Source of the DNA: an uncultured Oleiphilaceae bacterium
GTDB taxonomy: Bacteria > Pseudomonadota > Gammaproteobacteria > Pseudomonadales > Oleiphilaceae
NCBI GenBank assembly: GCA_913060665.1
Contig: CAJXUY010000024.1
Span: forward strand, 1 to 59,248
DNA length: 59,248 nucleotides
Direction: 5' to 3'
The position numbers and the translations under genes are program-made. Below, one piece after another: positions 9,429-37,265 of this stretch (positions within the stretch are counted from its first letter, which is position 1; each line of letters starts with the position of its first letter). The notes below the pieces were generated by a model, which saw nothing but the letters and a program-made list of their open reading frames with translations, was not told the DNA's origin and did not search any database.

Positions 9429-10490
9429 TTAGTGTCCCGGCGAAGGTCTGGTTCCTGCGCCTGACAGAATTGTTTCTTGTTCAATTGTTTTGATTAGATT
9501 AGCGGCAAGTTGTGCAGGGCTGCCAATAAAGGAACTGCACCCAGTAGCGTCCACAGAATCAGGCATTGAGCTATTTGCGCAACTTTCGGCGTTTTGTACC
9601 CATATTTTACAGCCGTATGCCTTTAGGAGTGGAGCCGCTATCGCTCCGTCATTGCCCATACCGCTAAATACCATTACGTTGCAATTAGCTCCGTAATGGT
9701 TAGCCACATTTAACATGACCTGATCAATGGATGGGCCATATGGCCCCGGCCAGGTAGTATCCTTAAATTGGACCTTTCCCTGTTCATCAAACACCATTTC
9801 ACGTTCGACGGGCACCATTAACACCTGCCCATTTCTAAGACTATCGCCTTCTTGAGCTTGCTTTAGTTCGAAACTAGAGTGTCTGGCTAATACCTTTGAG
9901 AGCACTGATGAGAAGTTTGCATCAATATGCTGTGCATAAATAAATGAGACTGGTAGCCCTGCAGGTAGCTGATCGAGAAATTCTTTGACGGCAGCAGGGC
10001 CGCCCAATGAGGCTGCCAGAATCCAGATCTGTTGCCCAGCGTTGTTTTCTGATGCATTAGATAGGACACTAGGGAGTGGTAAAGGCCCCTTTTGTTGATC
10101 AGATGCGTTGCTTAAACTATCTAATGATGCTTCGGAATCGAGCAGCTCCAGTGTGCCAATTTCATCTCTCAGCTTTGAGAATAGTCTTCTTTCCCAGCGG
10201 GGGTATTCATCACTATGACGTTCGGGGGCGTTGCCTAAACCAAACAGTACACCGGCTTCTGTGGAGTCGAGCAGGCTATCAATGAGGTCAGGAAATTCAT
10301 CCTCATTTTCAAGTTCCAGAATCCAGCACCCAATATTATCTAATTCAGCTTCTTGAGCATTTTCAAATCGGACCGGGTCGCAACTAATAGCGATTTCAAG
10401 CCCATAGTTTGAAATCGCGTGTTGGAGTATATGGCGTTGCAGCGGACTATCAGAAAGAATCCCTATTCTCGGTCGCTCAATTTCGCTCAT
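9429..10490 (-). CDS. chpB: CheB-type methylesterase ChpB
   Basis: A 353-residue protein whose C-terminal half is a CheB catalytic domain. The serine-histidine-aspartate triad is visible: Ser161 in AASLGG, His188 in AQHID and Asp281 in GMGNDG. It would remove methyl groups from the receptor PilJ and oppose PilK. The N-terminal 140 residues resemble a receiver fold only loosely and lack a clear phosphorylation site, as in ChpB rather than chemotaxis CheB. Its ATG overlaps the chpA stop (ATGA), indicating translational coupling. Confidence 0.9.
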   Translation of the reverse strand: MSEIERPRIGILSDSPLQRHILQHAISNYGLEIAISCDPVRFENAQEAELDNIGCWILELENEDEFPDLIDSLLDSTEAGVLFGLGNAPERHSDEYPRWERRLFSKLRDEIGTLELLDSEASLDSLSNASDQQKGPLPLPSVLSNASENNAGQQIWILAASLGGPAAVKEFLDQLPAGLPVSFIYAQHIDANFSSVLSKVLARHSSFELKQAQEGDSLRNGQVLMVPVEREMVFDEQGKVQFKDTTWPGPYGPSIDQVMLNVANHYGANCNVMVFSGMGNDGAIAAPLLKAYGCKIWVQNAESCANSSMPDSVDATGCSSFIGSPAQLAANLIKTIEQETILSGAGTRPSPGH

Positions 10491-13400: not shown

Positions 13401-16400
13401 TCGTTTGAAGAGGGGGTCTCACCTTCCAAGATTGGCGCGGTTAATTGAATAGTACTTTCGTCTTCAGGATCGTCTACCTGATCTACCGGTAGGTTTTCAA
13501 TATCCTGCGATAGCTCTTCTATACCCGTCGATGGTTCTTCTATGTTAGTGGGTTGAGCTTCGCCATTGATCAGTGCGACCACTGATGCAATTAAGTCGCT
13601 GGCAGGATATAGCGCAGAACCGTTGCCTATCTGATCAATCATTGTGGCAAGTTTGTCATGGCAGGCTAGCATTAGATCTGCGATGGAACTGTCCACTACA
13701 AGACCGTTTTCAACGATGCCCTCGAACAGTGTCTCAAGTTCATGAGCCAAGTCACCCAGTGGGCCGATCTCAGCCATTCGAGCGCCACCCTTTAAGGTAT
13801 GGAGCTCGCGTTGTAGTTCTTTGACGTTGCTGCTGTCATGTATGTCTTCGAGCCAAGTTTGAAGAAGCTCTCCAGTATTGTCGATAATCTCATTAGCTTC
13901 TTCGAGGAATATTTCGACTAATTCTGGATCAAGTGATTCAGAAAGAATCGGGGCGACATCTTCTGGTTGGAAGGTGCTATCTGATGTTTCGTCTGCTACT
14001 GCTATTTTCTCAGGCTCTAAAGGTTCAAATTCTTCTACCTCAAACGCTGCTAATTCGTTATCAGTACTATCTTCTTCTGTTGAGCTTAGAAGTTCATCAT
14101 CAGACGGTATATCTTCTAGCGAAGCTAGTGCACCTTCATCCTCTGACTCAAGAGTAGGAATGTTACCAAAATCAATTTCTTCATCATGTTCGTCGTCAAT
14201 TTCTTCATTAGCGGCTTCAATAAATTGCTCGGCAGTTTCTTCTGTTAGCTCGGCAGTTTCGGGTACTAAAGGCGCTTCCTGAACTTCTTCAACTGAATCT
14301 TCAATTGACAGCTGAGGTATTGTTTCAATCGGCTCTTCAGCAGAAGGTGCTGCTTCGCCATTAATCAGTGCGGTGATTTGAGTGATTAAATCAGGAGCTG
14401 ATCGACAAGTTCGACCTGCTTCAATGTCCTCAATCATGGTCGCAAGACGGTCGTGAGCCGTGAGCGAAAGGTCGATGATGTGGTTGGCGGTATTAATCTG
14501 ACCGTCTACGATTCTTTCAAAAAGGCTTTCCAGTTCGTGGGATAGGTCACCGATTGCTGATATTTCAGCCATACGAGCGCCACCCTTCAGGGTATGAAGT
14601 TCTCGTTGAAGTTCATTAACAACTTGATGCTGAGAGGGGTCTTCTTGCCACTGTTGGATCAGGTTTCCTGAGTTTTCGATGATATCATTGGCTTCTTCCA
14701 AGAATATCTCAATCAACTCTGGGTCAAGGTCTATCAGTGCTTGCTGGTCTTCTTCTGCAAGTTCTGGCAATTCTTCTACAACAGCGCCTGAGATTTCGAT
14801 ATCGCTAGAAGATGGCTCTTCTACTTCAGCGACTTCTTCGTGCGTAGAGGCTTCCGCTACAGACTCTGTTGTTGCTGAAATAACCTGCTGTATTTTCGAA
14901 ATGAGATCGGTTGCGGGTATACTGTTATTGCCAGAAGCGACATCATCAATGATAGACGCCAACCGGTCATGGCAGCTGAACAATAATGAAGCCAGCGATG
15001 CGTCTGCTGTTAAGCGTTTATCAGTTAGCCCTTCGAAAAGTGCCTCGAGCTCATGAGCAAGGTCCCCGATAGAGGGGATGTCGGCTAGGCGAGCGCCGCC
15101 CTTTAAGGTATGGAGTTCTCTTTGAAGCTCAACAAGCAGGTCAGGGTTGGTGGTATCTTCTGACCATTGTTGCAGCAATTCACCGGTATTGTTGATGATA
15201 TCATTGGCTTCTTCGAGGAAAATTTCGACCAATTCAGGGTCTAGCAACGACGCGCTGTCTGCTTCTGTTAGTTGAGGGAGTGCAGACTCCGACCCTTCGA
15301 CGGTGTCAAGGGTTGGAATGTCTTCTTCGACCTCAAAGCCAGATAACGTTGGAATTTCTACTTCCAATTCTTCATCGAGTTCTTTTAGTGCGTCTTGTTC
15401 TAGTTGAGTTAACTCTTCGGCTGCCTCGGCTGCTTCAGTGTCTGCTTTCTCTTTAGCGTCGCTTTCTGCTGCTGCTTTGTTAGCTTCTATGTTTAGAATC
15501 AATTCTTTTATTTCAGCAATAAGCTTGTTATTAGGTTGTGTTGCCAAGCCTGCAGCGACTTGATCCATAAGACTTAATAGGGCCTCGTGGCCGTGCGCGA
15601 TAGTATCAAGGAAACTATCATTGGCAACCACATCGCCAGATTCGATTAGTTCATAAGCATTTTCGAGTAAATCAGCGAACTCGGAAATATCCTCAAGTCC
15701 GGCGACCTGAGCACCTTGACTCAGGGTCTTGAGCTCGCCAACTAGTTTTTCAAGCTCCTCACCTGGAACAGGGTTATTGCGCCAGCTGTTAAGGATAGAC
15801 TCAGCGTCGAGCAGAATATCAATACCTTCAGTGAGAAAAATATTGATCAGTTGTGGGTCTGTGGTGACGCTTTGTACCTGCTCTATATCGCTTACGTCAG
15901 CAAAGGTAAGTTCACTAAGCTCGTTTAAGTGAGATAAAAATTCTTCGGTACCTTCGAGGTGGTGTTGCGGGTCGTTGTATAGCTGCTCGATACCTTGTCT
16001 GACATATCCTGCCGCTTGGCGTAGCATATCGGAAACGGCTGGATTGGCTGGAATGTTCAGCGCTCTGGCATCTTTAACAAATTTCTCTACCGGAACGATG
16101 ATATTGGCTATTGGGTCTATTCCCGCTGTGTTTGCACTTCCTTTTAAGGTGTGAAGGGCTCGTGAAATAGAGTCGGTAAATGAAAGTTCGCCTTCTGACT
16201 CTGCATTGTCGACAAATTCATTAATGGTATCGAGATGAGTGTCTGTTTCACTACGGAATATATCTAGTAATATAGGATCGACACCATTGTCGGTATCCAC
16301 TTCATTTTCGAAATTGGCGGCTGACGCCTCTGTTTCGTTGCTGCCTAGAGATGAAGTCGCCCCGCCTTCAGCCAGGGACTCAGCCTGTTGAATAAGTGCT

Positions 16401-19120
16401 GTTACATCATGACGAGGGTTACTTTGAAGTTTAAAATCCTCGACTAAATCCGGAAGAAGTGCTGTCGCATTACTGAGAACATCACCGATATCTTGATTCA
16501 TTTCGATTGAACCATCGATAATCCGGTTCATCACGCTCTCAGCAGCCCAGGAAAGCTCGCCTACTGTGGTTGCACTCACCATCCTTCCACTACCTTTTAA
16601 GGTATGGAATGCTCTTCGCAGTTCAGTTAATGCTTCACTGTTATCATGCTGGCTTAAATAGGTCGGTAGGTACTCGGCGATGGTCGCAAGAACCTCTTCG
16701 GCCTCTTCGATAAAGATCTCAATGATTTCGTCATCAATTAAGTCATCTTCATCAGGGTCTGTTCCCGCATTACTTATCGTAGCGGCACTTATTGGAGACG
16801 CTGCAGGTGTAACCACATTGGAAGTCTCTTCATCAACTACTGCTAGCGTAGGCTCCGCATCCGCATTCTTTTCGCTAATGGTGGTTTCTTCGGTCAGATC
16901 TGTTTCAATTATTGGCGTTTCAGTCTCAGCGGCCTTGTTTGCACCTGAGCGAGGCACACCTGCAAACATGTTAGCTTGGTCTATCAGGTTGCTAACATCG
17001 TCTGAAGATTTCTTCTCTTTGAAGTCAGTTACCAGCTGAGGTAGCGTTTGAATAACATCTTCAAGGAGAGGGAATAGCTCTTTTGAAATAGTAATAGTAT
17101 TGTCGAGAATACGGTTGAGCATATTTTCCACTGCCCAAGCTAGTTCGCCTAGTGTTACCGCGCCTACTAATCGTCCGCTGCCCTTTAACGTATGGAATGC
17201 ACGTCTAAGTTCGACTATTGCATCTTTTTGTTGATGGTCTTTAAGGAATTTAGGGTAAAACTCTGAAATAGTGTCGAGAACTTCTTCTGCTTCCTCAATG
17301 AAAATTTCAATTATTTCATCGTCAATAAGCTCTTCGTCAGAGCCTTTGCTAGGCGCGTCAGGAGAAAAATCAGATACCGTGGTTTCTGGTGATGACTCTT
17401 GTGTCTCGTTCGTTTCAATATAGGTAGGGACTTCACCTGGCGGAAACCCTAGTTCTATGACGCTCTCTTCTGCGACTTGAAGAATTAGTTCGTTATCTTG
17501 AGCGCCTTCAGTGAGTCGCTCAATGTAGTATTCTATGCTGGTAATCGCATCAGCTAGGGTGTCGAGTTGTTTCCAATCCGGAACGCTCTTCTTCGACAGT
17601 AATGCTTGCTGTATGTATTGATTACAGGAGTTAATGAGCTCTGAGGCTTTGGTCAGAGGGATAATTTGCAAACCACCACGAAGCCCATCCAGAATTTCCG
17701 GAACACCTTCAATTTCACTGTGATCCCATTGAGACGCAATAAAATTGACTATGCATGTCTTGGCTTGTTCTAACCCGTTCCTAGCTTCTCTTAAAACGGC
17801 ATCATGTGCGTTACCCAATTGCTCGGCAGGTATGTCCGATTCAGTATTTGCAGATAAGGACGAAGCATGCTCTTCTGTCATGCCTGTTAATGTCGCTTCG
17901 ACGTAGAGAAGGGCGCCGGCAATATCCATAAGTGTGCTATCTTCTGCCTCACCACGTTTGTCTACCAGTGCTTCTATCACTTCAACTTGTTCAAGCGTTA
18001 CTTTTCTTGGAATGCCCAACCCAAGCACGGCCATGGTGTTTGCAACCTGTTTAAGGCCAGGCAATAACTCTTCAAGATCAGCGTTGTCTCTAAACTCTCC
18101 TCGAACGAACAAATCTAGTTGGTCTTTAATTCTAGCGAGTTCTTCATTAAGAGCGGCAACAACTGACTCTATAGCGTCTTTATCCGGTCCTTGCATTCGC
18201 TGTCTTTCAGCATCAACTTCTTCATCTTTAGGAAGAGATTGATCTAGATGAAATTGCTGGCGAACTTTATTGACGTGTTCGGTGTCTGTATCAGCTTTTG
18301 CAATATAATAGAGTAGGTGTTTCAGCAGGTCTTCAGGAATAGGTTGTAGCAGTATATCAACGCTTTCATCAACTAAGCGTTTTAGCTGATGGTCGAGGTC
18401 TCGCAAAAGCGTTTTAGTAGCGGAGGTTAACTCAACCGCATTGTCGTCAAACACATCAATAAAGGCTATGGCAACTGACCAGAGCTGCCCTAGGGATGTA
18501 TTCTGGCAGAGTCGTTCTACCCGCGTTAAAACTTTGACCATATAGGCTGTGTTTGCTTTAACTTCATTGCCGCGAATAACGCCTGCTAAAGAAAACTGAA
18601 ACATTTGACGTAATTTGCGAAGGCTGGCAATGACTTTTTCATCTTGTAGGCGCTGAACAGCCCCTGAAGGTGCAGTAACTCTGGCAGCTGATAGGTCGGG
18701 CGTAAATAGAGATGTGTCAGAGAGTAGTGGCTCCCCTCTAGATGCCCTAAGGTCATTAAGAATTGGGAGTATCACTAATGGCAGATCTTTGCGGCCAGCA
18801 TGTAGGTGCTCAAGATAGCTTGGAAGCTGCAGAACCGCCTGCATCAAAACTTCTACCGCATCTTGCAGGTTAGGAACGGCCTGGTTAAGCAATGCTTGGG
18901 CGAGCTTTTCCATCTCTTCTGCAAGCAGCGCCGCACCATAGAACTCGACCATCTGCAGTGTGCCATGCACTTGATGGATATAGTTCAGACAGAACCGCAT
19001 ACGGGATGTATCTTCCGTATTCTCGACATAGGCTTCCAGCGCCTGTCGTGCCTGATTTAGTGTTTCATCTATTTCGCCTCGAACCCAGTCGAGTGCTACA
19101 TAGTCATGGCTATTACCCAT
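10487..19120 (-). CDS. chpA: Giant multi-Hpt histidine kinase ChpA of the Pil-Chp pathway
   Basis: About 2,877 residues. Order: an N-terminal FimL-like/Hpt-like domain (IHQVHGTLQMVE near residue 50), a long helical region, then eight Hpt modules with HTLKG at His643, 839, 990, 1337, 1509, 1774, 1979 and 2121. A ninth, degenerate module has Lys1131 instead of His. The CheA core follows: dimerisation from about 2270, HATPase N-box HMLRNALDHG near 2460, G-box SGRGVGMD near 2555, a CheW-like domain, and a C-terminal receiver with Asp2807 (LLDIEMP). It phosphorylates PilG and PilH to control type IV pili and surface sensing. P. aeruginosa ChpA is shorter, with fewer canonical sites. The frame extends to 19168, but ATG 19120 follows GGAG and gives the family start MGNSHDYVALDW. 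Confidence 0.95.
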   Translation of the reverse strand: MGNSHDYVALDWVRGEIDETLNQARQALEAYVENTEDTSRMRFCLNYIHQVHGTLQMVEFYGAALLAEEMEKLAQALLNQAVPNLQDAVEVLMQAVLQLPSYLEHLHAGRKDLPLVILPILNDLRASRGEPLLSDTSLFTPDLSAARVTAPSGAVQRLQDEKVIASLRKLRQMFQFSLAGVIRGNEVKANTAYMVKVLTRVERLCQNTSLGQLWSVAIAFIDVFDDNAVELTSATKTLLRDLDHQLKRLVDESVDILLQPIPEDLLKHLLYYIAKADTDTEHVNKVRQQFHLDQSLPKDEEVDAERQRMQGPDKDAIESVVAALNEELARIKDQLDLFVRGEFRDNADLEELLPGLKQVANTMAVLGLGIPRKVTLEQVEVIEALVDKRGEAEDSTLMDIAGALLYVEATLTGMTEEHASSLSANTESDIPAEQLGNAHDAVLREARNGLEQAKTCIVNFIASQWDHSEIEGVPEILDGLRGGLQIIPLTKASELINSCNQYIQQALLSKKSVPDWKQLDTLADAITSIEYYIERLTEGAQDNELILQVAEESVIELGFPPGEVPTYIETNETQESSPETTVSDFSPDAPSKGSDEELIDDEIIEIFIEEAEEVLDTISEFYPKFLKDHQQKDAIVELRRAFHTLKGSGRLVGAVTLGELAWAVENMLNRILDNTITISKELFPLLEDVIQTLPQLVTDFKEKKSSDDVSNLIDQANMFAGVPRSGANKAAETETPIIETDLTEETTISEKNADAEPTLAVVDEETSNVVTPAASPISAATISNAGTDPDEDDLIDDEIIEIFIEEAEEVLATIAEYLPTYLSQHDNSEALTELRRAFHTLKGSGRMVSATTVGELSWAAESVMNRIIDGSIEMNQDIGDVLSNATALLPDLVEDFKLQSNPRHDVTALIQQAESLAEGGATSSLGSNETEASAANFENEVDTDNGVDPILLDIFRSETDTHLDTINEFVDNAESEGELSFTDSISRALHTLKGSANTAGIDPIANIIVPVEKFVKDARALNIPANPAVSDMLRQAAGYVRQGIEQLYNDPQHHLEGTEEFLSHLNELSELTFADVSDIEQVQSVTTDPQLINIFLTEGIDILLDAESILNSWRNNPVPGEELEKLVGELKTLSQGAQVAGLEDISEFADLLENAYELIESGDVVANDSFLDTIAHGHEALLSLMDQVAAGLATQPNNKLIAEIKELILNIEANKAAAESDAKEKADTEAAEAAEELTQLEQDALKELDEELEVEIPTLSGFEVEEDIPTLDTVEGSESALPQLTEADSASLLDPELVEIFLEEANDIINNTGELLQQWSEDTTNPDLLVELQRELHTLKGGARLADIPSIGDLAHELEALFEGLTDKRLTADASLASLLFSCHDRLASIIDDVASGNNSIPATDLISKIQQVISATTESVAEASTHEEVAEVEEPSSSDIEISGAVVEELPELAEEDQQALIDLDPELIEIFLEEANDIIENSGNLIQQWQEDPSQHQVVNELQRELHTLKGGARMAEISAIGDLSHELESLFERIVDGQINTANHIIDLSLTAHDRLATMIEDIEAGRTCRSAPDLITQITALINGEAAPSAEEPIETIPQLSIEDSVEEVQEAPLVPETAELTEETAEQFIEAANEEIDDEHDEEIDFGNIPTLESEDEGALASLEDIPSDDELLSSTEEDSTDNELAAFEVEEFEPLEPEKIAVADETSDSTFQPEDVAPILSESLDPELVEIFLEEANEIIDNTGELLQTWLEDIHDSSNVKELQRELHTLKGGARMAEIGPLGDLAHELETLFEGIVENGLVVDSSIADLMLACHDKLATMIDQIGNGSALYPASDLIASVVALINGEAQPTNIEEPSTGIEELSQDIENLPVDQVDDPEDESTIQLTAPILEGETPSSNEEFIIKQEQPGEETTSDESTAETTSEQDFADDLMAIFLEEAREICDAIIDCLDHWNEAPANLNDVIEIQRELHTLKGGARLADIDNIGDLADALYDKLEVALSENATDNKALIQVTSRSAEQLVSMLTELENAGKTSPVTDLIDTINAIPIKERKNIATADIDNAEEDEAADAEILEIFLEEANEILEALDTQTSDWSTDTSNNDFNREIQRLLHTLKGGARLAGLMELGNVSHELESKLIEAVENNDGLTTELLATVNQYQDKLSSLVTEVNHRFIALSAEQATQKAPQVVETQAVPATNDEEKPFVQESNDPQPPAITAEGDTQALAVEPTPPVEDQDRVTTTAKKPDSQAQKSAKSRPAQQETVRVSASLIDDLVNLAGETSITRGRLEQQISDFSFNLDEMVSTIERLREQLRRMDMETEAQVLFRTEKEGVGPDYADFDPLEMDRYSSIQQLSRALTESTFDLLDLRETLADKARDAETLLLQQSRIHTELQEGLMKTRMIPFSSMVPRLRRIVRQISGELGKKAEFDVQNAEGEMDRTVLERMVAPLEHMLRNALDHGIETIDKRKAAGKPEAGNISLSLNREGGDIVLRMKDDGGGIKVDVIRDKAIAQGLMKKDIALSDHDILQFIMKAGFSTAEQVTQISGRGVGMDVVASEIKMLGGNISIDSKEGAGTTFTVRLPFTVSVNRALMVNTGDDFYAIPLNTIEGIVRVSPYELEEYYKPDAPLYEYAGQQYRLQYLGNVLHSDHKPKLQGQPLPLPVILVRGTDHPIALQVDSLMGSREIVVKSLGAQFSKVPGVSGATILGDGSVVVILDLPALIRADDGRALSNTGSEVEIAGPVEQRPTLVMVVDDSVTVRKVTTRLLERNGMDVITAKDGVDAIAQLQDHKPDVMLLDIEMPRMDGFEVASLVRHDENLKDVPICMITSRTGQKHRERAMSIGVNEYLGKPFQEKELLSTIEKLTDLS
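12650..15245 (-). repeat. Array of five HTLKGG phosphotransfer modules within chpA
   Basis: Five modules, each with an EIFLEEA helix, a linker and ELHTLKGGAR or LLHTLKGGAR, follow one another with acidic spacers. The three at about 13610-13935, 14390-14735 and 14890-15245 are so alike that stretches recur at DNA level, for example the reverse complement of GAGGAAxATxTCxAxxAATTC near 13900, 14705 and 15220. This points to duplication of a module within the gene. Confidence 0.75.
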
Positions 19121-19136
19121 AACTTCTCCAGTATTT

Positions 19137-20036
19137 CTAATTCTTTTCTGGGCGTCGGATGAACGCAAGAGTATTGTCGCTTGGGACCCGTTCTAAATCA
19201 GGGTGCTCCCAGTCGACCATTTCACCTTGGCCTAATACCAGTAATCCACCTGGCACCAGTCTTTCCACCAATCTACTTAAGATTTCTTTACGTCTCCAAC
19301 GACGAAAATAGATCAATACATTTTGGCAAAAAATTACATTCATTCCATGCATGGGTGCGTTGCCGAGATCTAAAATGTTAACTCTTGCAAAACAAACACG
19401 ATCTTTAATGGCAGGAATGACTTCATACTGACCATTATCGTGTTTGTTGAAATATTTTTCCCGTTGCGTACCTTCAACCGTTACCAGTTTACGCTCGGAA
19501 TATATCCCGGCTCGCGCTTTTTCTAGGGCTGGAGTGCTTATATCGGTACCTGTGATACCGTAATAATGCTTGAGCCCTAGCATATACATACTTTCACTGA
19601 GCAGCATTGCCAAGGTATAAGGCTCTTCTCCTGTTGAGCAGCCAACACTCCATACTTCGAGTGTTGATTTTTTAAGGTTATCGACAGGGCGGGTCAGAAC
19701 ATAGTCTGTTACCAAGTTACAAGCATCTATATCTCTATAGAAGCGAGTTTCTTGCACGGTCAGTCGATCAACTAGAGTGGTCCATTCGATTATTCCGCTA
19801 GGACCGCTAATTACCTTTTCAAAATACTCTTGATAGTCACTACAACCAATTTCACGCATCCGAGTACCTAAGCTTGTTTGCAAAAAGACCTTACGGCCTA
19901 TCGGCAAGCTCATGCCCGTCCGGCTCTCCAGTAGCTCCTGCCACTTTCGAAATTGGTCATTATCCATTTCTGGTAATGGTTTCAAGACCCACCCGGTGGG
20001 TTGAGCCTTGTCATTGTAGTTAGCCATCATATTCAC
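19137..20036 (-). CDS. pilK: CheR-type protein methyltransferase PilK
   Basis: A 299-residue CheR-family methyltransferase. The N-terminal helical domain is followed by the SAM-binding fold: VWSVGCSTGEEPYTLAM (about residues 128-145), the acidic GTDIS strand, and FCQNVLIYF, where most CheR proteins have FCRNVLIYF. It would methylate glutamates of PilJ. It sits 28 bases after pilJ and 16 bases before the chosen chpA start. The ATG at 20036 has no strong ribosome-binding site, and ATGs at codons 3 and 4 are alternatives. Confidence 0.93.
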   Translation of the reverse strand: MNMMANYNDKAQPTGWVLKPLPEMDNDQFRKWQELLESRTGMSLPIGRKVFLQTSLGTRMREIGCSDYQEYFEKVISGPSGIIEWTTLVDRLTVQETRFYRDIDACNLVTDYVLTRPVDNLKKSTLEVWSVGCSTGEEPYTLAMLLSESMYMLGLKHYYGITGTDISTPALEKARAGIYSERKLVTVEGTQREKYFNKHDNGQYEVIPAIKDRVCFARVNILDLGNAPMHGMNVIFCQNVLIYFRRWRRKEILSRLVERLVPGGLLVLGQGEMVDWEHPDLERVPSDNTLAFIRRPEKN

Positions 20037-20064: not shown

Positions 20065-22110
20065 CTATGCTGCAGTCTCTGACTCGCCTTCTTCTGGTAG
20101 ATTGAAGCCCGCTACTGAGCTTCGAAGTTGGTTTGCCATTTCAGCAAGGTTACCGATCGATTTCGCAGTTGCGTTGGTACCCGCTGAAGTCTGCGAGGTA
20201 ATCTCTTGGATAACATTCATTGTATTGGAAATGTGGCCAGCAGAGGACGACTGCTGACGAGCTGCGTTAGAGATGTTCTGGATCAAGTCTGCAAGGTTCA
20301 TCGATACGTTCTCGATCTCTTCTAGTGCAACACCTGCATCCTGTGCTAATCGAGCTCCGCGTACCACTTCTGCAGTGGTATGTTCCATCGATATAACTGC
20401 TTCGTTGGTATCGGTTTGGATCGTCTTAACCAGTGCTTCAATTTGTTTTGTTGCAGCAGATGAACGTTCTGCCAGTCGCTGTACTTCGTCGGCAACAACC
20501 GCGAAGCCTCGACCTGCATCTCCGGCCATCGATGCCTGGATTGCAGCGTTCAATGACAGGATGTTCGTTTGATCGGCGATGTCATTGATCAGGGATACGA
20601 TATCCCCGATTTCCTGGGAAGATTCACCCAGACGTTTGATACGCTTTGAGGTTTCTTGAATTTGCTCACGGATCGTGTCCATGCCTCTTATGGTGTTTTG
20701 TACAACCTCGGCGCCTTTTTTCGCGATCGCAACCGACCTTTCCGCAACCGCCGATGACTCGCCAGCGTTTGAAGATACTTGGTCGATAGAGACGGCCATT
20801 TCGTTTACGGCTGCTGATGCACCGGCAATTTCCTGTGCCTGATGCTCAGATGCGTCTGCAAGGTGCATGGCCGTCGCTTGTGTTTCTTGTGCCGCGGCGG
20901 CAACCTGAACAGCGGTATCTCGAATTGCTTTAACAAGACCACGCATTTGGTCGATTGCGAAGTTGATAGAGTCAGCGATTGCCCCTGTGAAATCTTCTGT
21001 TACCGTTGCTTCTGTGGTCAAATCACCATCAGCTAGGTCAGCCAGTTCATCAAGTAGTCGCAAGATCGCGTTTTGGTTTTGTTCATTTTGTTCAGTCGTT
21101 GTTTGAAGGCGGGCCTGACTTTCACGGAATAGCGATAAACCGATTAGGACAATAACAGTGATCACCATACCCAAAACAAGGTATGCAAGAGTAGGGCTTA
21201 TAGTTCGTGATTCTGCCTGAGTTTGAAACTGGCTTGAAAGCGATGTCGTTTCTTTAAGAAGAGCTTGAGAGTCTTGGAATATATTGTTTGCAGATTTACG
21301 AACCTTAAATAGTTCTGGTGATGTCTCTAAAATAGCATCAACGTTATCATTGACGAACTCAAACATTTCGGCGATGGCCTCGAGGCCGTAAATAGCATCT
21401 TCGTCTCTTACCTGGCTGATGCCCATTACGTTGTTGCCTTCAACCATACCATTTAGGACTCGCCCAAACAATTTGGCGTCGCGACCGAATCGGTCAGCGG
21501 CTATTACAGCATCTTCATCACCTGAAAGTACGTTGTTAACACTTCGAACAATACGTTCTGCAAGTAGTGATTGGCGTTGAGCAACGGCAATTTGATCTGC
21601 TGGTGCTTCGCTTTCTAATAGAATTTGAACAATATCATCATACTCAACCTGTAGCTGTGGAATGGTTTCGTTGAGGGTTTCTGCCACCAAGTGGAGGGAT
21701 AGCACTGTATCTTGGTTTGCCAGAATTTGGTCGGTGTTGTTTTTTACTTCGTTCCAACGTTTTACTACGCCTGTTTCTGATGCGAGCTCAGTAGGAGGAA
21801 GATTGGTTTCCTGATTACCTTGAACAATAAGGTTTAGTTTACGCTCAAAGTCATCACGAGATCGTTTAAGCTGGTCAAATGCTTCAGATTTACCATCCGA
21901 TGCTTCCGATGCGTTTTTGGCGATTTCCTGCGATAACACTCGAAGGTCACTTGCATGGCCTGCATATTCTTTATCGTGGTTACTGTCTCTTACGATTATG
22001 AACGATACATATGCAAGAAAGAGTAGCAGGACGACCAACACTCCACCTAATCCAAGGAGGAGCGAGCTGTTGCCCTGGCCTGAATTAAACTTTCCAGATT
22101 TACTTTTCAT
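20065..22110 (-). CDS. pilJ: Type IV pilus chemoreceptor PilJ
   Basis: A 681-residue transmembrane methyl-accepting protein. Membrane segments at about 16-40 and 306-328 enclose a helical periplasmic sensor of about 265 residues, as in PilJ. A HAMP-like stretch (LADLADGDL) and a long signalling coiled coil follow, with the tip ADQTNILSLNAAIQAS and [16 protein letters not shown]; the IQASMAG variant is typical of PilJ. It senses pilus or surface signals and drives ChpA. GGGAG stands nine bases before the ATG. Its gap to pilI is 164 bases, the longest in this run. Confidence 0.94.
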   Translation of the reverse strand: MKSKSGKFNSGQGNSSLLLGLGGVLVVLLLFLAYVSFIIVRDSNHDKEYAGHASDLRVLSQEIAKNASEASDGKSEAFDQLKRSRDDFERKLNLIVQGNQETNLPPTELASETGVVKRWNEVKNNTDQILANQDTVLSLHLVAETLNETIPQLQVEYDDIVQILLESEAPADQIAVAQRQSLLAERIVRSVNNVLSGDEDAVIAADRFGRDAKLFGRVLNGMVEGNNVMGISQVRDEDAIYGLEAIAEMFEFVNDNVDAILETSPELFKVRKSANNIFQDSQALLKETTSLSSQFQTQAESRTISPTLAYLVLGMVITVIVLIGLSLFRESQARLQTTTEQNEQNQNAILRLLDELADLADGDLTTEATVTEDFTGAIADSINFAIDQMRGLVKAIRDTAVQVAAAAQETQATAMHLADASEHQAQEIAGASAAVNEMAVSIDQVSSNAGESSAVAERSVAIAKKGAEVVQNTIRGMDTIREQIQETSKRIKRLGESSQEIGDIVSLINDIADQTNILSLNAAIQASMAGDAGRGFAVVADEVQRLAERSSAATKQIEALVKTIQTDTNEAVISMEHTTAEVVRGARLAQDAGVALEEIENVSMNLADLIQNISNAARQQSSSAGHISNTMNVIQEITSQTSAGTNATAKSIGNLAEMANQLRSSVAGFNLPEEGESETAA

Positions 22111-31471: not shown

Positions 31472-32518
31472 GTGAAAAACTTCGGGATATTAAAAGGCTT
31501 ACTTAAAAACAGCTTGCTACTGGTAGTTGTCTCATTTCAGCTGGTTGGCTGTCAAACCTTCAAAGATAAGGTTGTTTACGCGCCTGCTGGAGGTGTGATG
31601 CAGAATTTGGCAATGGAGCATACTGTGCCCTACCTGCTCGGAACCGAAGATTTAGCCGTTAGTTGTGCCATGAGTGAGGCAATGTCTCCATTGTTGATGG
31701 CATTTGGTAGAGTGACTTCAAACCCAGATCAATTAGGCGTGATGCTGGGCTTATCTGCGGGCGCATGTGAAGAGCAAAGAGCCTGGGATAACGAGTTACG
31801 CTATTTAAGAGCGATGCGTGACTTGCGCCCGGATGAAGCTGAGGATGCATTGATTACTCAAAAACGACACTTGGTCAATGCCTCTAAGCGACAGTATTCA
31901 GCTTATAAACATCTAGTGAATTATTATGGTGAGCCAGGCGAAGAATGTCCGGATTTAGATCAAGATTTTGACCAGTTTATCTGGATTGCCGGTATGCTAT
32001 CCGGACTACAGGCGCTGAATAACGAAATTCAATCTACTTCGGGTGTTGGTGTTCCTAAGAATATCGCTTCAAAAGTTGAGCTCGGTGCAAGTTGCGTGAA
32101 TGATGATCAGTGGTGGGGTGCCCCGATGGCGATGAAGGCTGCTGTGTGGGCTATGTTGCCGGGAGCGCTACCTCAGGGTGAGAATGCGTGGGAGCGCTTA
32201 GAAACTGCGCAGGCTAAGGGTGAAGAGGCTCGTGTAAGACTGCCGAATGTATTGTATGCGATGGCTGCCTTTTCGAACGGAAAAAACGACCTGGTGAAAG
32301 ATATTATTCGTCGCCATGCAGAGCACGTTAAAAAACATCCAGCGGACCCTGAATATGTGCTTATTGATACGACTGCAACCTTGCAGCTACAAGCAATCTC
32401 GGACCGACTTTGGACGGAAAACACGGGTCATAGAACGCCTGTGGGTAGATTAGGGACTTTTTGGGATGACAAAAAAGAGTCTAATGTAGAAGTAATAGAA
32501 CTGGATGACCTCCTATAA
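31472..32518 (+). CDS. TatT-like TRAP transporter-associated lipoprotein
   Basis: A 348-residue lipoprotein with a lipobox LVGC (Cys about residue 27) after a hydrophobic leader, so it should be lipid-anchored. The mature part is helical, with spacing suggestive of TPR-like repeats (FIWIAGMLSGLQALNNEI, LPNVLYAMAAF, IIRRHAEHVKKHP), resembling TRAP-associated T-components (TatT). Such proteins form trimers that dock TRAP solute-binding proteins. Its position directly before a solute-binding gene and a TRAP permease supports this more than sequence alone. The start is GTG with AGGAGA five bases upstream. It could instead be an unrelated helical lipoprotein. Confidence 0.6.
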   Translation: MKNFGILKGLLKNSLLLVVVSFQLVGCQTFKDKVVYAPAGGVMQNLAMEHTVPYLLGTEDLAVSCAMSEAMSPLLMAFGRVTSNPDQLGVMLGLSAGACEEQRAWDNELRYLRAMRDLRPDEAEDALITQKRHLVNASKRQYSAYKHLVNYYGEPGEECPDLDQDFDQFIWIAGMLSGLQALNNEIQSTSGVGVPKNIASKVELGASCVNDDQWWGAPMAMKAAVWAMLPGALPQGENAWERLETAQAKGEEARVRLPNVLYAMAAFSNGKNDLVKDIIRRHAEHVKKHPADPEYVLIDTTATLQLQAISDRLWTENTGHRTPVGRLGTFWDDKKESNVEVIELDDLL

Positions 32519-32588
32519 GAACTATAAATCAGATGACATGCAACATTCCAGTTTGTACATTTAAATAACTGAAAATAAGGTTAAGGCA

Positions 32589-33608
32589 TTGAAACTATTG
32601 AAAAGTATTAAGGCTCTATCAGTCGCCGCAGCGGTATCTGCAACCGCTATAAGTAGCGCAGTGCAGGCAGAAATGATGGACAGGTCGTTTTGTGTTTGGG
32701 ATCCGGTTGGTGCAAATGGACCTCTGTATAATGTCATGAAGTCTGCTAAACCAAGTGCTATGAAATGGGGCATAAACCTTGAACTTAAAGCGTATACCGA
32801 TGAAAAGATTGCAGCTGACGATTTTAAAGCGGGGCAGTGTGATTCGGTGCTTTTAACAGGGACCCGAGCAAGAGATTTTAATAAATTTACAGGTTCTCTT
32901 GAGGCTATAGGTGCTATTCCAACGAGTGAAGAGATGAAGATGATTCTTCAAACGCTGACTCAGCCTAAAGCTGCAAAGCTGATGGTAAGCGGAGAGTACG
33001 AAGTGGCGGGTATCCTGCCAGCGGGTGCGATTTATTTATATACTCGGGATCGTAGGATCGATACAGTTGAAGAACTTCAAGGCAAAAAAGTGGCCACCCT
33101 TGACTATGATCAGGCGTCTATGACTATGGTTCGCCATGTCGGAGCGTCGGTCGTGGGGGCGAGTACTGCTAATTTTGCTGGCAAGTTTAACAATGGGAGT
33201 GTTGATGTTGCGTATGCTCCAGCAGTTGCATACACGCCCTTGGAGCTATACAAAGGCCTAGGTGAAGACGGTGGGATTGTTGATTTTTCGTTGGGTCAAA
33301 TGAATTTTCAGGTCATTGTTCGTCCTGATCGTTTTCCAGAAGGGTACGGTCAAAAAGTACGTGACTACAGTGCTACCAGATATGAAGAAGCTTACAAGCT
33401 AGTAGAAGAGGCAGAAGCAGAGGTCAAACAGGATTACTGGGTAAAACTTAGTGAGGAAAACCTGGAAAGCTATAGCAAAATGCTACAGGAGGTGCGTATT
33501 TCTCTGCGAGATGAGGGTGTGTATGACGCTAAGGCATTACGTTTGATGAGAAAAGTTAGGTGTAAAAAGAATCCAACAAACTCTGAGTGTTCAGAAAAAA
33601 GAGAATAG
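32589..33608 (+). CDS. TRAP-type solute-binding protein, copy 1
   Basis: A 339-residue exported protein; the signal peptide is cleaved after VQA at about residue 27. The mature protein has a periplasmic-binding fold (LKAYTDEKIAADDFKAGQCDS, AGILPAGAIYLY, GKFNNGSVDVAYAP) and fits a putative TRAP solute-binding family that I recall as DUF6091, not classical DctP. Four cysteines (35, 84, 325, 334) are shared with the second copy. It begins at TTG with AAGG upstream, 70 bases after the lipoprotein, and is probably co-transcribed with it. About two thirds of residues match copy 2 by eye. The ligand is unknown. Confidence 0.75.
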   Translation: MKLLKSIKALSVAAAVSATAISSAVQAEMMDRSFCVWDPVGANGPLYNVMKSAKPSAMKWGINLELKAYTDEKIAADDFKAGQCDSVLLTGTRARDFNKFTGSLEAIGAIPTSEEMKMILQTLTQPKAAKLMVSGEYEVAGILPAGAIYLYTRDRRIDTVEELQGKKVATLDYDQASMTMVRHVGASVVGASTANFAGKFNNGSVDVAYAPAVAYTPLELYKGLGEDGGIVDFSLGQMNFQVIVRPDRFPEGYGQKVRDYSATRYEEAYKLVEEAEAEVKQDYWVKLSEENLESYSKMLQEVRISLRDEGVYDAKALRLMRKVRCKKNPTNSECSEKRE

Positions 33609-33661
33609 TGAGTTGGCGTGTTCTTAAAAATAAACATGTTGCGTAAAAGACATGTATAGTA

Positions 33662-33693
33662 AGGGTCGCTGAATATAGCGGCTCTTGGTTTTT
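33662..33693 (+). terminator. Possible partial terminator between binding protein and permease
   Basis: AGGGTCGCT and AGCGGCTCT pair across GAATAT with two wobbles, and a T-rich stretch follows shortly after. It could lower permease expression relative to the binding protein, a common pattern in transporter operons. Confidence 0.4.
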
Positions 33694-33790
33694 GAGTGTC
33701 GCTCATAATTAGCATTAACGTTATAGCGTCATTTTTAAGATCACATAATAATAGAGAACAATAAATAACAAGCTTTGGGGGCTGTTTTCA

Positions 33791-35857
33791 GTGCAAAATC
33801 GTGGAGTTGCGAATCGATCTATCAGGGAGTGGATATCATCATTGCCTGCATGTCTTTTATTGTTAGCCGTTGTTGTATTTAGTACGGGTAGTGATATTCA
33901 TAATCAAATGCTTAAAATGGGTGAGCAAATATGGGGGGGCTATTACAAGCTTCGAGTAGACCCTCAGTTGCCTGGCTGTGATGCTGATTTTAATGTAGAT
34001 AAGAGGGTTGAGGAGCAGATTTTATTAGAGAAACATAAGCCTGTTGACGACTTTGACCTTTTTGAAGATGAGCCTGTTGACCCAGAAATTCTGAAAAAAT
34101 CGTTGCAGAATGCGAAGAGTGACTGTGCTGCAAAGTATTTGGAATTTGATGAACTTAAAGATCGCATTACTCCAGGGGTTAGAGCTTACCGCTCTGTTGA
34201 GCTATTTATTGCTGATTTGGTGGCGTTTGGGTTAACGGCGCAGCGCTTTATTTTGGCGCTACTCGTGTTGCTTTGTGCGGCTACCGCTACCATGAGTCGG
34301 CACCATATCGCGATGAGAGCTATGCAGACTCAGTTGGATCATACTGTCTCATTCTCGTTGCAGTTTATTGCCAATAGTATGTTGCTGATTTCGACATTGT
34401 CTTTTAGGGCTTTGTCACACTCTGGCGGGGCAGAGGTAGAGCTGTCAAAAGAAATTCTTCATGATGTTTGGATTGCCGGCTTTGGTTTGTTGACGATTAT
34501 CAGTGCTGTTAAATTGTTTAAAATCCCTGCAGATGTTAAGTCTGGGGGGAGTTTGGGGCATGCGCTTCTTTCTGTGCCTCTTTATACGACTATGTGTTTG
34601 ATAGCAGGTACTTACTTTGCGCTTGCTGGTCATATTGCCGGAATTGGTATCTATCTAGATAAAATGATGGATTTGTCTGACATGTTTTTGAATGTTGGGT
34701 TGTATGTCTGGGTTGGTATGATGCTTAAACAAACTAGATTAGCATCACTGGTGTTTGCCGTATTCAAACCTTGGAAAATGCCTCCTGAGATGCTTGCAGT
34801 GGTTGCGGTTATTGCAGCGGCCATTCCAACGGCATACACCGGTGCTTCAGGTATTTTTGTTATTGCTGCTGGTGCGGTGATATATCATGAGCTTCGTATT
34901 GCTGGGGCGAGAAGGCAGTTGGCATTAGCCGCGACGGCTATGTCTGGTAGTCTTGGTGTAGTACTGAGACCTTGTCTATTGGTCGTGGTTATAGCGTACT
35001 TGAACCGAGAAGTAACGACTGATCAGCTTTTCGGCTGGGGTATTTGGGTGTTTCTGTTAACCGCAGGGCTGTTTCTTATTGTAGCGATGACGGTTAATAG
35101 GCAGAGTAAGTTAGAGTTGGCGCCGGTAGGTGAAGCTTTTCCTGCCATGATTAAAGCATTTCAGCCTCTTATCCCTTATATTCTAGTAGTTGCGGGTATT
35201 GTTCTGTTTTATCGTTTTGTGCTTGAGGTCGGTATGGACGAGTTCTCTGCGCCTCGCGTATTGCCTGTCTTAATGCTAGGTATTCTGCTTTATGAGCATA
35301 TTACGTTAAAGGGAGGGAAGCAGAATGTGTCAGGGGAAATTAATCACAAAGGGCTTGAAAATAGCATTAGAGCAGCGACCAATGAGACCACTTCGGAAAT
35401 AGGCGCCTTATTGTTGCTAATCGGGTGCTCCGTTAGTATTGGAGGGGTGATAGAGCGTTCCGGCATGATGGAAATGTTCCCGCACTCGTTTGATAGTGCA
35501 TGGAGTGCGATGCTGTTACTAGTATTTATCTTGGTTATTCTTGGCATGATTATGGACGCATTTGGTGCTGTGATATTGGTAAGTGCGACTATCGCCACTA
35601 TTGCTTATCAGAGCGGAATTCATCCGGTTCACTTTTGGATGGTGACATTGGTTGCGTTTGAGTTGGGTTACTTAAGCCCTCCTGTAGCGTTAAATCACTT
35701 ATTGACCCGTCAGGTGGTAGGGGAAGCAGAAGTAGAGCTTGCACTACAAGAGGGAGATACCTTTTATCAGCGTCATGAGCGCATTATAATGCCGTTAATA
35801 GTCATGGGTATAGCGTTAGTATTGGTGGCGTTTGTGCCTTTGGCTATTGGCTATTAA
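33791..35857 (+). CDS. Fused TRAP transporter permease (DctQ-DctM type) with periplasmic insertion
   Basis: A 688-residue polytopic membrane protein. A first membrane helix (about 15-34) leads to a soluble loop of about 110 residues with two cysteines (63 and 112). Three more helices complete a DctQ-like four-helix unit. From about residue 250 it is DctM-like: TGASGIFVIAAGA, SGSLGVVLRPC, GMIMDAFGAVILV, and HPVHFWMVTLVAFELGYLSPPVALN, the typical TRAP large-subunit ending. It would import a solute with sodium or proton flow. The large external loop is unusual for a Q domain and may contact the lipoprotein. The start is GTG with a G-rich ribosome-binding site. Confidence 0.85.
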   Translation: MQNRGVANRSIREWISSLPACLLLLAVVVFSTGSDIHNQMLKMGEQIWGGYYKLRVDPQLPGCDADFNVDKRVEEQILLEKHKPVDDFDLFEDEPVDPEILKKSLQNAKSDCAAKYLEFDELKDRITPGVRAYRSVELFIADLVAFGLTAQRFILALLVLLCAATATMSRHHIAMRAMQTQLDHTVSFSLQFIANSMLLISTLSFRALSHSGGAEVELSKEILHDVWIAGFGLLTIISAVKLFKIPADVKSGGSLGHALLSVPLYTTMCLIAGTYFALAGHIAGIGIYLDKMMDLSDMFLNVGLYVWVGMMLKQTRLASLVFAVFKPWKMPPEMLAVVAVIAAAIPTAYTGASGIFVIAAGAVIYHELRIAGARRQLALAATAMSGSLGVVLRPCLLVVVIAYLNREVTTDQLFGWGIWVFLLTAGLFLIVAMTVNRQSKLELAPVGEAFPAMIKAFQPLIPYILVVAGIVLFYRFVLEVGMDEFSAPRVLPVLMLGILLYEHITLKGGKQNVSGEINHKGLENSIRAATNETTSEIGALLLLIGCSVSIGGVIERSGMMEMFPHSFDSAWSAMLLLVFILVILGMIMDAFGAVILVSATIATIAYQSGIHPVHFWMVTLVAFELGYLSPPVALNHLLTRQVVGEAEVELALQEGDTFYQRHERIIMPLIVMGIALVLVAFVPLAIGY

Positions 35858-35880
35858 AGGTACTTAACGTATTATTTGAG

Positions 35881-35907
35881 AAAGGTAAGCATTTGCTTAC
35901 CTTTTTT
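35881..35907 (+). terminator. Intrinsic terminator after the TRAP permease
   Basis: AAAGGTAAGCA and TGCTTACCTTT form a perfect 11-bp stem around TT, followed by Ts. It ends the lipoprotein-binding protein-permease transcript, so the second binding protein needs its own promoter. Confidence 0.9.
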
Positions 35908-36008
35908 TATGTCTTAAAGAACGGTTTATATAGCAAAATTTGTTAGCGTTAACAGCATATTCAGTAGGTGTTCACAGTATTGTTTGTTTAAAGTTGGCAT
36001 TATTTGAT

Positions 36009-36047
36009 TGTGATATAGGGTCACTAGGAAAGTGTGAAAATTCACAC
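36009..36047. promoter_or_regulatory. Paired CRP-like dyads before the second solute-binding gene
   Basis: Two TGTGA/TCAC dyads lie in tandem: TGTGA-n7-TCACT at 36009-36025 and a perfect palindrome GTGTGAA-AA-TTCACAC at 36032-36047. The TGTGA and TCACA halves recall CRP sites, but the spacers are 7 and 4 bases instead of 6. They end 33 bases before the ATG, placing them near the transcription start. Another regulator with GTGTGA half-sites is equally possible. Confidence 0.5.
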
Positions 36048-36080
36048 AAAAGACAATAATAAAATAAAAAAGGGATTCAC

Positions 36081-37100
36081 ATGAAAATACGAAAAACTAC
36101 TTTAAAATCCGCATTGGCTGTTGCTGTTACTGCCTGTGCAATCGTAGCTCCTACTCAGGCAGAGGTCGTCAAGCGATCATTTTGTGTCTGGGACCCAATA
36201 GGGGCAAACGGTCCTCTTTTTAATATCATGAAAGCAACCAAGCCTGCGGCTATAAAGTGGGGGGTTGAGCTTGACCTCAAAGCCTACACTGATGAAAAAG
36301 TAGTTGCTGAAGACTTTAAGGCGGAACAGTGTGACGCGGTGCTTGTGACTGGTACTAAAGCTAGAGAGTTTAATAAGTTTACTGGAAGCTTAGATGCTTT
36401 GGGTGCACTACCTAGTGACGAGGAGATGCGTATTATGCTTGAGACGCTGACCAGCCCAAAAGCCGCTAAGTTGCTGAAAAGTGGTAAGTATGAAATTGCA
36501 GGGATTTTGCCTGCTGGTTCCGTATATCTCTATTCTAGAGATAAAACAGTAGATACGGTTAATGAGCTGCAGGGGAAAAAGATTGGGACATTTGATTATG
36601 ACAAAGCTGCTGTGCATATGGTTCGGCATGTTGGTGCTTCAGTAGTGGGTGCGACTACCGCTAACTTTGCAGGGAAGTTTAATAATGGCAGTGTTGACTT
36701 GGTTTACGCGCCAGCCGCTGCTTATACCCCGCTAGAGCTTTATAAAGGAATAGGCGACAGCGGTAGTGTGTTTAGTTATAAGTTAGCACAGTTTAGTTTT
36801 CAGACTGTCATCCATAGTGATCGCTTCCCCGCTGAATTTGGTCAGCAAATGAGAGATTTTTCTGCTACTCGTTATGATGAAGCTTATGAAATTATTGCGA
36901 CGGCAGAGTCTGAAATTAACCCTGAGTTTTGGACTCATCCCACTGCAAAGGATGCGGAGAATTATGCGGCTATGTTTCGCAATGTGAGAATAAGCTTGAG
37001 GGATGAAGGTGTCTATGATGCGAAGGCGTTAAAGCTAATGCGGAAAGTTCGCTGTAAGAAGAACCCTTCTCACGCAGAGTGTACTGAAAAAACAGAGTGA
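36081..37100 (+). CDS. TRAP-type solute-binding protein, copy 2
   Basis: A 339-residue exported protein, the same length as copy 1 and collinear without gaps. The signal peptide ends at TQA-E (residue 27). Cys35 and the C-terminal CKKNPSHAEC pair are kept, as are RSFCVWDPIGANGPL, GKFNNGSVDLVYAP and VRISLRDEGVYDAKAL. Divergence concentrates in the signal peptide and in segments that could line the ligand cleft (about 225-240 and 270-290). It lies behind a terminator with its own palindromes and AAGGGA ribosome-binding site, and ends at its own terminator. It likely serves the same permease with different ligand range or regulation. Confidence 0.75.
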   Translation: MKIRKTTLKSALAVAVTACAIVAPTQAEVVKRSFCVWDPIGANGPLFNIMKATKPAAIKWGVELDLKAYTDEKVVAEDFKAEQCDAVLVTGTKAREFNKFTGSLDALGALPSDEEMRIMLETLTSPKAAKLLKSGKYEIAGILPAGSVYLYSRDKTVDTVNELQGKKIGTFDYDKAAVHMVRHVGASVVGATTANFAGKFNNGSVDLVYAPAAAYTPLELYKGIGDSGSVFSYKLAQFSFQTVIHSDRFPAEFGQQMRDFSATRYDEAYEIIATAESEINPEFWTHPTAKDAENYAAMFRNVRISLRDEGVYDAKALKLMRKVRCKKNPSHAECTEKTE

Positions 37101-37227: not shown

Positions 37228-37265
37228 AAAAAGCCCCGGCTGATTACTCAGTCGGGGCTTTTTTT
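37228..37265. terminator. Strong intrinsic terminator, probably bidirectional
   Basis: AAAAAGCCCCGGCTGA and TCAGTCGGGGCTTTTT form a stem of about 16 bp with one G-T wobble and a four-base loop, followed by more Ts. It serves the second solute-binding gene and, read backwards, the convergent pckA. Confidence 0.9.

Follow-up and report, generated by a model that had tools for sequence, protein, structure and literature searches.

A conserved cluster of lipoprotein, AdeT-type receptors and fused permease in an Oleiphilaceae bacterium, a likely divergent relative of TPAT importers

Layout and conservation of the locus

The window analysed here is a 59,248-nucleotide stretch, contig CAJXUY010000024.1 of an uncultured Oleiphilaceae bacterium (GCA_913060665.1, positions 1 to 59,248, forward strand). 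It carries four forward-strand genes for a transporter of the tripartite ATP-independent periplasmic (TRAP) type. The first (31472..32518; 348 aa, GTG start) encodes a lipoprotein, the proposed equivalent of the T-component of TRAP transporters associated with tetratricopeptide repeat (TPR) proteins (TPATs); its lipobox, LVGC, ends at Cys27 (31550-31552). Next come a gene for a solute-binding receptor, SBP1 (32589..33608; 339 aa, TTG start), with a signal-like N-terminal helix, and a gene for a permease in which the Q and M parts are fused (33791..35857; 688 aa, GTG start). A second receptor gene, SBP2 (36081..37100; 339 aa), follows. A stem-loop with a T-run occupies the gap between SBP1 and the permease (33660..33687, forward strand), and a terminator lies between the permease and SBP2 (35878..35907, forward strand). 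The original prediction, read from the letters and open reading frames, proposed this order of lipoprotein, receptor, fused permease, terminator and second receptor, and all four reading frames were found where it placed them, at 348, 339, 688 and 339 residues. The lipobox, the paired 339-residue receptors and the DctM-type permease that it described were likewise confirmed, by LVGC at Cys27, by 63% identity between the receptors and by a match to Pfam family PF06808 (6e-17).

We searched for the three parts in 145 genomes of the window's order. The permease search returned 31 genomes at E<=1e-20, and we set aside five whose sole rows were DctMs at 28-33% identity beside TAtT (PF16811) genes. 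The lipoprotein, the receptor family AdeT1_2 and this permease type occupied an identical set of 26 of the 145 genomes. When a second family of 119 genomes, perhaps Moraxellaceae, was examined, the three sets were nested (55, 56 at E<=1e-40, and 58), and among its 102 good genomes the lipoprotein, receptor and permease counts were 46/46/46; completeness is 59-84% in the three genomes without a lipoprotein match. Within the window's own family the lipoprotein was present in 58 of 61 genomes, and 20 lipoprotein-bearing loci of that family had a permease neighbour in 20 cases and a receptor in 17. Because the genome sets are related, these co-occurrence counts are not independent events, and a simple probability exaggerates the agreement.

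Gene neighbourhoods gave a similar picture. We counted all 41 lipoprotein rows in the order, 51 of 67 permease rows (dropping eight second gene halves, two short pieces and six DctM rows at 28-33% identity, five of them the sole rows of the genomes set aside above) and 88 of 89 AdeT rows (one short piece dropped). Both partners lay within 3 kb on the same strand for 33 of the 41 lipoprotein matches, a receptor for 38 and neither for three. A receptor was found within 3 kb of 39 of the 51 permeases. We also collected 78 named loci around the lipoprotein, with organism names taken from record titles; many are metagenome-assembled genomes (MAGs), and in some cases one genome supplied two loci. 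A receptor was near in 72 of these, a permease in 64 and both in 62. A chance cluster was rejected on the co-occurrence of the three parts. The cluster is a real, conserved system, probably for uptake.

AdeT-type receptors and a fused DctM-type permease

Both receptors are members of the Pfam family AdeT1_2 (PF19582; E 2.2e-86 for SBP1 and 1.9e-77 for SBP2, 290.6 and 261.1 bits against a cut-off of 27), and they share 214 of 339 residues. The classical DctP family PF03480 scored 15 bits on SBP1, under its cut-off of 23.4, and was not listed for SBP2, while NCBIfam TRAP_S1 gave 43.9 and 38.2 bits, under its cut-off of 50. SBP2 additionally gave a weak NMT1/THI5-like match (E 0.03). The AlphaFold2 (AF2) model of SBP1 (pLDDT 92.6) has the TRAP DctP fold: TRAP receptors made up all 50 Foldseek matches listed (best E 4.7e-16). 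They also made up 11 of the 12 matches up to E 10 when a profile of 41 AdeT sequences was run against the PDB (best E 0.012). The claim that these receptors are not classical DctP proteins was therefore borne out by sequence, but the SBP1 model still has the DctP fold. The assignment to a TRAP-type importer was supported. A TAXI-type receptor was rejected, with no TAXI family matching the window proteins at E<=1.

AdeT proteins have been assigned a different function. Authors who surveyed Acinetobacter isolates count AdeT1 and AdeT2 among resistance-nodulation-division (RND) efflux pumps (PMC5622949). The window's receptors belong to the same family, far over its cut-off, but they stand beside a lipoprotein and a DctM-type permease. 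No RND family matched any of the four window proteins at E<=1, and the receptors combine a DctP fold with a DctM-type partner. In addition, the Pfam name of PF19582 is solute-binding, and AdeT1_2 has been placed in the periplasmic-binding clan (PMC11467057), so that this fold placement is already in print. The RND efflux reading was rejected, and we consider it very improbable that the AdeT proteins are part of such a system.

Most DctP receptors (96.8%) carry an arginine at the position of SiaP residue 147, which selects carboxylates (PMC4646407). Position 165 of the AdeT profile aligns with this residue (counted by hand; the SiaP chain is 2xwk, the R147A mutant). Arginine occurred there in 0 of 41 and 0 of 113 AdeT receptors, and 85 of the 113 had alanine; the receptor alignment (A4) held 39 of the 113 and the window's two. 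In one alignment, covering TPAT loci of the window's order, nine of nine classical TPAT receptors had tryptophan at this position. Among 23 other DctP rows all but one had arginine, and the odd one out (L244) is an antisense reading frame; two of the 30 DctP loci (L240, L243) gave no row and fall outside this count. When the AdeT profile was scored on 30 DctPs, TPAT receptors ranked 1-4 and 7.

DctM (PF06808) aligns to residues 259-683 of the permease at 62 bits (cut-off 23.8); NCBIfam dctM scored 79.6 bits, short of the 268 that its cut-off requires. Its Q part contains an extra loop of about 110 residues (roughly residues 34-142; 33890..34216, forward strand), bounded by hydropathy segments at 15-33 and 143-161. 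Cys63 and Cys112 of the loop are invariant in 35 of 35 aligned permeases (alignment A3, 34 of 74 QM stretches plus the window), making it a family trait. The loop had been noted in the original prediction as periplasmic, and it would probably lie on that side. Against DctQ the Q part gave a weak hhalign match (probability 3%, P 0.013) over just 42 columns around RHHIA / NHIAID.

We compared the permease with other DctMs by scoring its profile on 29 loci, of which four were of its own kind, seven were TPAT and 18 were other DctM loci from the same ten genomes. All seven TPAT DctMs were matched, at 75-112 bits, whereas 11 of the 18 others were matched, at 28.3 bits at most, and the remaining seven gave no match at E<=10. 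In a 34-row tree (16 of 35 QMs, 7 TPAT, 11 others) the other DctMs were separated from QM plus TPAT with support 93/99, in a midpoint-rooted topology whose branches are long and whose bootstrap had not settled, and which does not unite the TPAT rows in one clade. Some permeases of this type, including those of G060, G182 and G199, have open frames of 735-903 aa and carry an unmatched insert near residue 505-520 of the window's protein, which lacks it.

The lipoprotein and its likeness to T-components

No Pfam family matched the lipoprotein above its cut-off, and NCBIfam gave no match. A lipobox-like site was present in 75 of 78 homologues with a loose pattern that allows chance matches, and in 41 of 78 with a stricter one. 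The family is well conserved, with 27 invariant columns, four of them cysteines, among 30 sequences from a whole-protein search. Invariant columns of the 68-row alignment are biased, since its loci were collected by the peptide pattern SDR[ML]WTEx[TR]G; the 30-row set, gathered without that pattern, has the four invariant cysteines too. Alignment A2 held 67 of the 78 named loci. In one congener (G004, L284 7184-7819), a draft genome, the lipoprotein comprises just 212 aa in a single open frame, without the central part of the family model; the receptors and permease beside it look complete.

The AF2 model of the lipoprotein is all helical (pLDDT 94). Foldseek returned no match at E <= 0.001. 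Among the 50 matches listed, four TatT-family chains (7t1s, 8g53, 3u64, 4di3) had the top probabilities, 0.93-0.97, with the next at 0.85, and their TM-scores by target length were 0.46-0.54. These are weak matches: 3u64, TatT itself, gave probability 0.94, TM-score 0.48 and E 0.50; 7t1s gave 0.97, 0.51 and 0.36; and 8g53 gave 0.97, 0.54 and 0.82.

For TPATs (TatT Tp0956, TatP(T) Tp0957 and TatQM) we follow the description in a review (PMC5812351). The window shares with them the T-P-(Q)-M gene order, and nine of nine classical TPAT loci in our sample read TatT-DctP-(DctQ-size reading frame)-DctM. It also shares a permease that groups with TPAT DctMs and receptors without the carboxylate arginine (tested on nine TPAT loci of the order). 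The helical lipoprotein matches the TatT fold weakly. There are also differences. The window's lipoprotein has no PF16811 match or hhalign link, its receptors are AdeT1_2 whereas those of TPAT belong to the DctP family, and Tp0957 is absent from the 50 fold matches listed for SBP1. The window's permease is fused, with a long cysteine-bearing Q loop, whereas the nine TPAT loci keep DctM apart from a DctQ-size reading frame; and AdeT-type loci, unlike TPAT loci, often have several receptors per permease. TAtT loci were aligned in 17 of 20 cases (A5; L182, out of frame, L190 and L192 left out) and DctQ-size reading frames in eight of nine (A7). Of the 145 order genomes, 41 carry TAtT genes, nine of these being among the 26 with the AdeT system; the window's genome has none.

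Two further systems bear on the comparison. BstC of Methylococcus (7T1S), which has the TatT fold, has been studied with a periplasmic binding protein (PMC10942540), and Methylococcales also carry the AdeT-type system. BstB, by contrast, belongs to the phosphonate-binding family PF12974 and its membrane partner BstA is an RND protein (PMC10942540); our lipoprotein profile matched none of their PDB chains by sequence. SiaPQM and other DctP-type TRAP systems have the same receptor fold, a DctM-type permease and fused QM, but the window's receptors lack the equivalent of SiaP Arg147 and have a conserved lipoprotein partner.

On balance we favour the reading that this is a divergent TPAT-like importer, with a constant lipoprotein partner, a non-carboxylate and perhaps hydrophobic solute, and duplicated receptors that share one permease. 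The system would be a TRAP-type secondary importer, a separate divergent lineage beside TPAT. The lipoprotein, probably on the outer membrane, would accept or retain a solute that is hydrophobic, or at least not a carboxylate, and hand it on to SBP1, which would deliver it to the QM permease for import driven by an ion gradient. SBP2, a duplicated receptor behind its own terminator, would feed the same permease with another ligand range or under other conditions. The original prediction further proposes that the lipoprotein is a trimer, which could present either receptor to one channel. We infer the direction and chemistry of transport, and likewise the sharing of one permease.

Several results weigh against this reading. 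For the lipoprotein, the TatT-family Foldseek matches had E 0.36-0.82 and TM-scores by query length of just 0.34-0.42, and LGN-type TPR chains outranked them when sorted by E. TAtT (PF16811) was absent among families at E<=1 for 30 family members and among the Pfam matches of the four window proteins, the lipoprotein profile found no TatT link among PDB chains and no match in nine TPAT loci, and hhalign against TAtT gave a probability of 0.15%. For the locus, 12 of 51 permeases had no receptor within 3 kb, with AdeT elsewhere in all 12 genomes, and 38 of 88 AdeT matches in the order sample lay near neither partner. Among the 16 named loci without both partners, ten held a receptor only, two a permease only and four neither; contig ends explain few of them (L101, L160, perhaps L159 and L170). 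The original prediction asked whether lipoprotein and receptors always accompany the permease and named permeases regularly lacking a nearby receptor as a point against it. The three parts do share the same 26 genomes, but those 12 permeases, and the 10 of 78 named loci with a receptor but no permease near the lipoprotein, bear out that point in part.

Identity of the lipoprotein with TatT by sequence was rejected, since the Pfam, PDB-profile, hhalign and TPAT-locus searches were all negative. We call it T-component-like rather than TatT because the fold match is weak and the sequence methods gave no link; by analogy of fold and gene context it probably works like a T-component. The earlier proposal of a T-component-like lipoprotein is thus supported in part, by a weak fold match and by context and not by sequence.

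The same results suit an ordinary TRAP importer that would bind a small polar solute or organic acid through another residue, with the lipoprotein as an accessory tether or stabiliser without a TatT role. The DctP fold is clear, the lipoprotein is not TatT by sequence, a helical lipoprotein could match TatT, C3d and TPR proteins just generically, and SiaP lacking its arginine is still functional at high ligand concentration (PMC4646407). We regard such an importer as unlikely, given that the arginine is missing in 113 of 113 AdeT receptors and that the permease groups with TPAT, apart from other DctMs.

Receptor duplication, expression and possible cargo

The window and four of four congeners keep the order lipoprotein-SBP1-QM-SBP2, in agreement with the earlier description of two receptors flanking one permease. 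In the receptor tree the genus's five downstream copies grouped together (98/97) on longer branches, and a second clade (100/99) united eight copies that lie upstream in other genera of the family. Because these copies form separate clades, receptors were added at least twice at this site. Derivation of SBP2 from SBP1 of the same genus is weakly supported (90/51). More than one receptor was found in 19 of the 78 named loci, and Alcanivorax-type loci have up to five receptors or two permeases. Strong receptor expansion was seen in G134, G199, G210 and G219, which have 8 to 17 AdeT1_2 match rows against apparently one permease gene of this type each.

Both hairpins fold in five of five congeneric sequences, the window and four of four congeners, even though their stems vary in sequence. 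Because both are kept in this way, more SBP1 than permease is probably produced, and SBP2 is probably transcribed separately. The hairpin at 33660-33687, which the original prediction did not mention, is a probable leaky terminator that would keep the receptor level above that of the permease. A palindrome 5' of SBP2 was considered as an operator and rejected, as it is not conserved in the congeners.

The conserved terminator ahead of SBP2 and the longer branches of the downstream copies also suggest that SBP2 might not serve the window's permease, and might instead work with another permease, act as a sensor or be a decaying duplicate; other TRAP permeases are present in the same genome. However, the window and all four congeners keep SBP2 in place, and it retains the invariant cysteines of the AdeT family and 63% identity to SBP1. 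The window's permease is also the sole match of its type at E<=1e-20 in its own genome. We consider this alternative to be quite improbable and retain the reading in which the two receptors share one permease.

By record titles (counted by eye, with no baseline), 36 of the 78 named loci come from Alcanivorax or Alcanivoracaceae kin, Thalassolituus and Oleispira, and nine from Methylococcales kin; the others include Hahella, Ketobacter, Bacterioplanes and a few Myxococcota MAGs. Alcanivorax-type genera, Thalassolituus and Oleispira live on alkanes, and Methylococcales live on methane. The link to hydrocarbons is drawn from these genus names. TPATs in free-living proteobacteria are mostly found among hydrocarbon degraders, for which a hydrophobic cargo has been suggested (PMC5812351), and BstC, which its authors place in the T-component superfamily, binds sterols (PMC10942540). 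By analogy, the loss of the arginine, the TPAT hydrocarbon link and the sterol binding of BstC together point to a hydrophobic or non-carboxylate ligand.

MlaE- and ABC-type lipid-transport genes were found in six of the 78 loci, five of these from Methylococcales, and MlaD- and TPR-lipoprotein-type genes accompany them in five of the six; these genes were assigned by protein clusters, with Pfam run on L168 only. The MlaE, ABC, MlaD and TPR-lipoprotein genes lie with AdeT-type TRAP genes in L117 (8872-12297), L168 (14139-17547), L126, L152 and L158, and in part in L122; all come from Methylococcales except one, which is from another gammaproteobacterial MAG. Six loci contain a gene that matches an outer-membrane-protein barrel weakly, below cut-off.

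A wider proposal, which we put forward tentatively and hold to be rather less than an even bet, is that AdeT receptors, this lipoprotein family and long-loop QM permeases are a second T-component TRAP lineage. It would move lipids, or molecules derived from hydrocarbons, from the outer membrane to the inner one, with a cargo in common with mammalian cell entry (MCE) lipid transport in methanotrophs and specificity set by repeated receptor duplication, and the AdeT 'drug pumps' would be importers. In the passages searched, literature on alkane-grown bacteria does not name proteins of the AdeT system (PMC7318663, PMC7284936). In similar passages, TRAP proteins raised under dispersant (PMC7822026) could not be identified as the AdeT-type system, a periplasmic binding protein raised on polyesters (ALC24_2998, PMC7187450) is not placed in it, and PMC11970703 contained no AdeT. 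We found no paper in the open-access literature searched linking AdeT to a lipoprotein and TRAP permease; the search did not extend to subscription literature such as the first TPAT reports (Deka 2012, Brautigam 2012), whose species lists might include some of these genomes.

With this cluster the AdeT family gains a permease and a lipoprotein partner, which makes the import reading directly testable. The cluster adds a lineage whose receptors, like the TPAT receptors of the order, lack the carboxylate arginine, which bears on the cargo of T-component TRAP systems. Loci with duplicated receptors around a single permease provide ready-made pairs in which to study how TRAP permeases work with more than one receptor.

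Surrounding the locus are genes that we recognise from their translations as presumably coding upstream for aspartate transcarbamylase-like, dihydroorotase-like and small HU-like proteins and downstream for phosphoenolpyruvate (PEP)-carboxykinase-like and Hsp33-like proteins. SBP2 and the PEP-carboxykinase-like gene, which converge, are separated by a palindrome resembling a terminator (37230..37262, no strand assigned), which was read by eye and is unlisted in the hairpin scan. Elsewhere in the window, the reverse strand encodes a hybrid histidine kinase of 2893 aa that contains nine Hpt stretches as well as CheW and receiver domains (10487-19168). CheR- and PilJ-type genes adjoin it on the same strand (19137-20036 and 20065-22110), forming a pilus-type chemosensory cluster.

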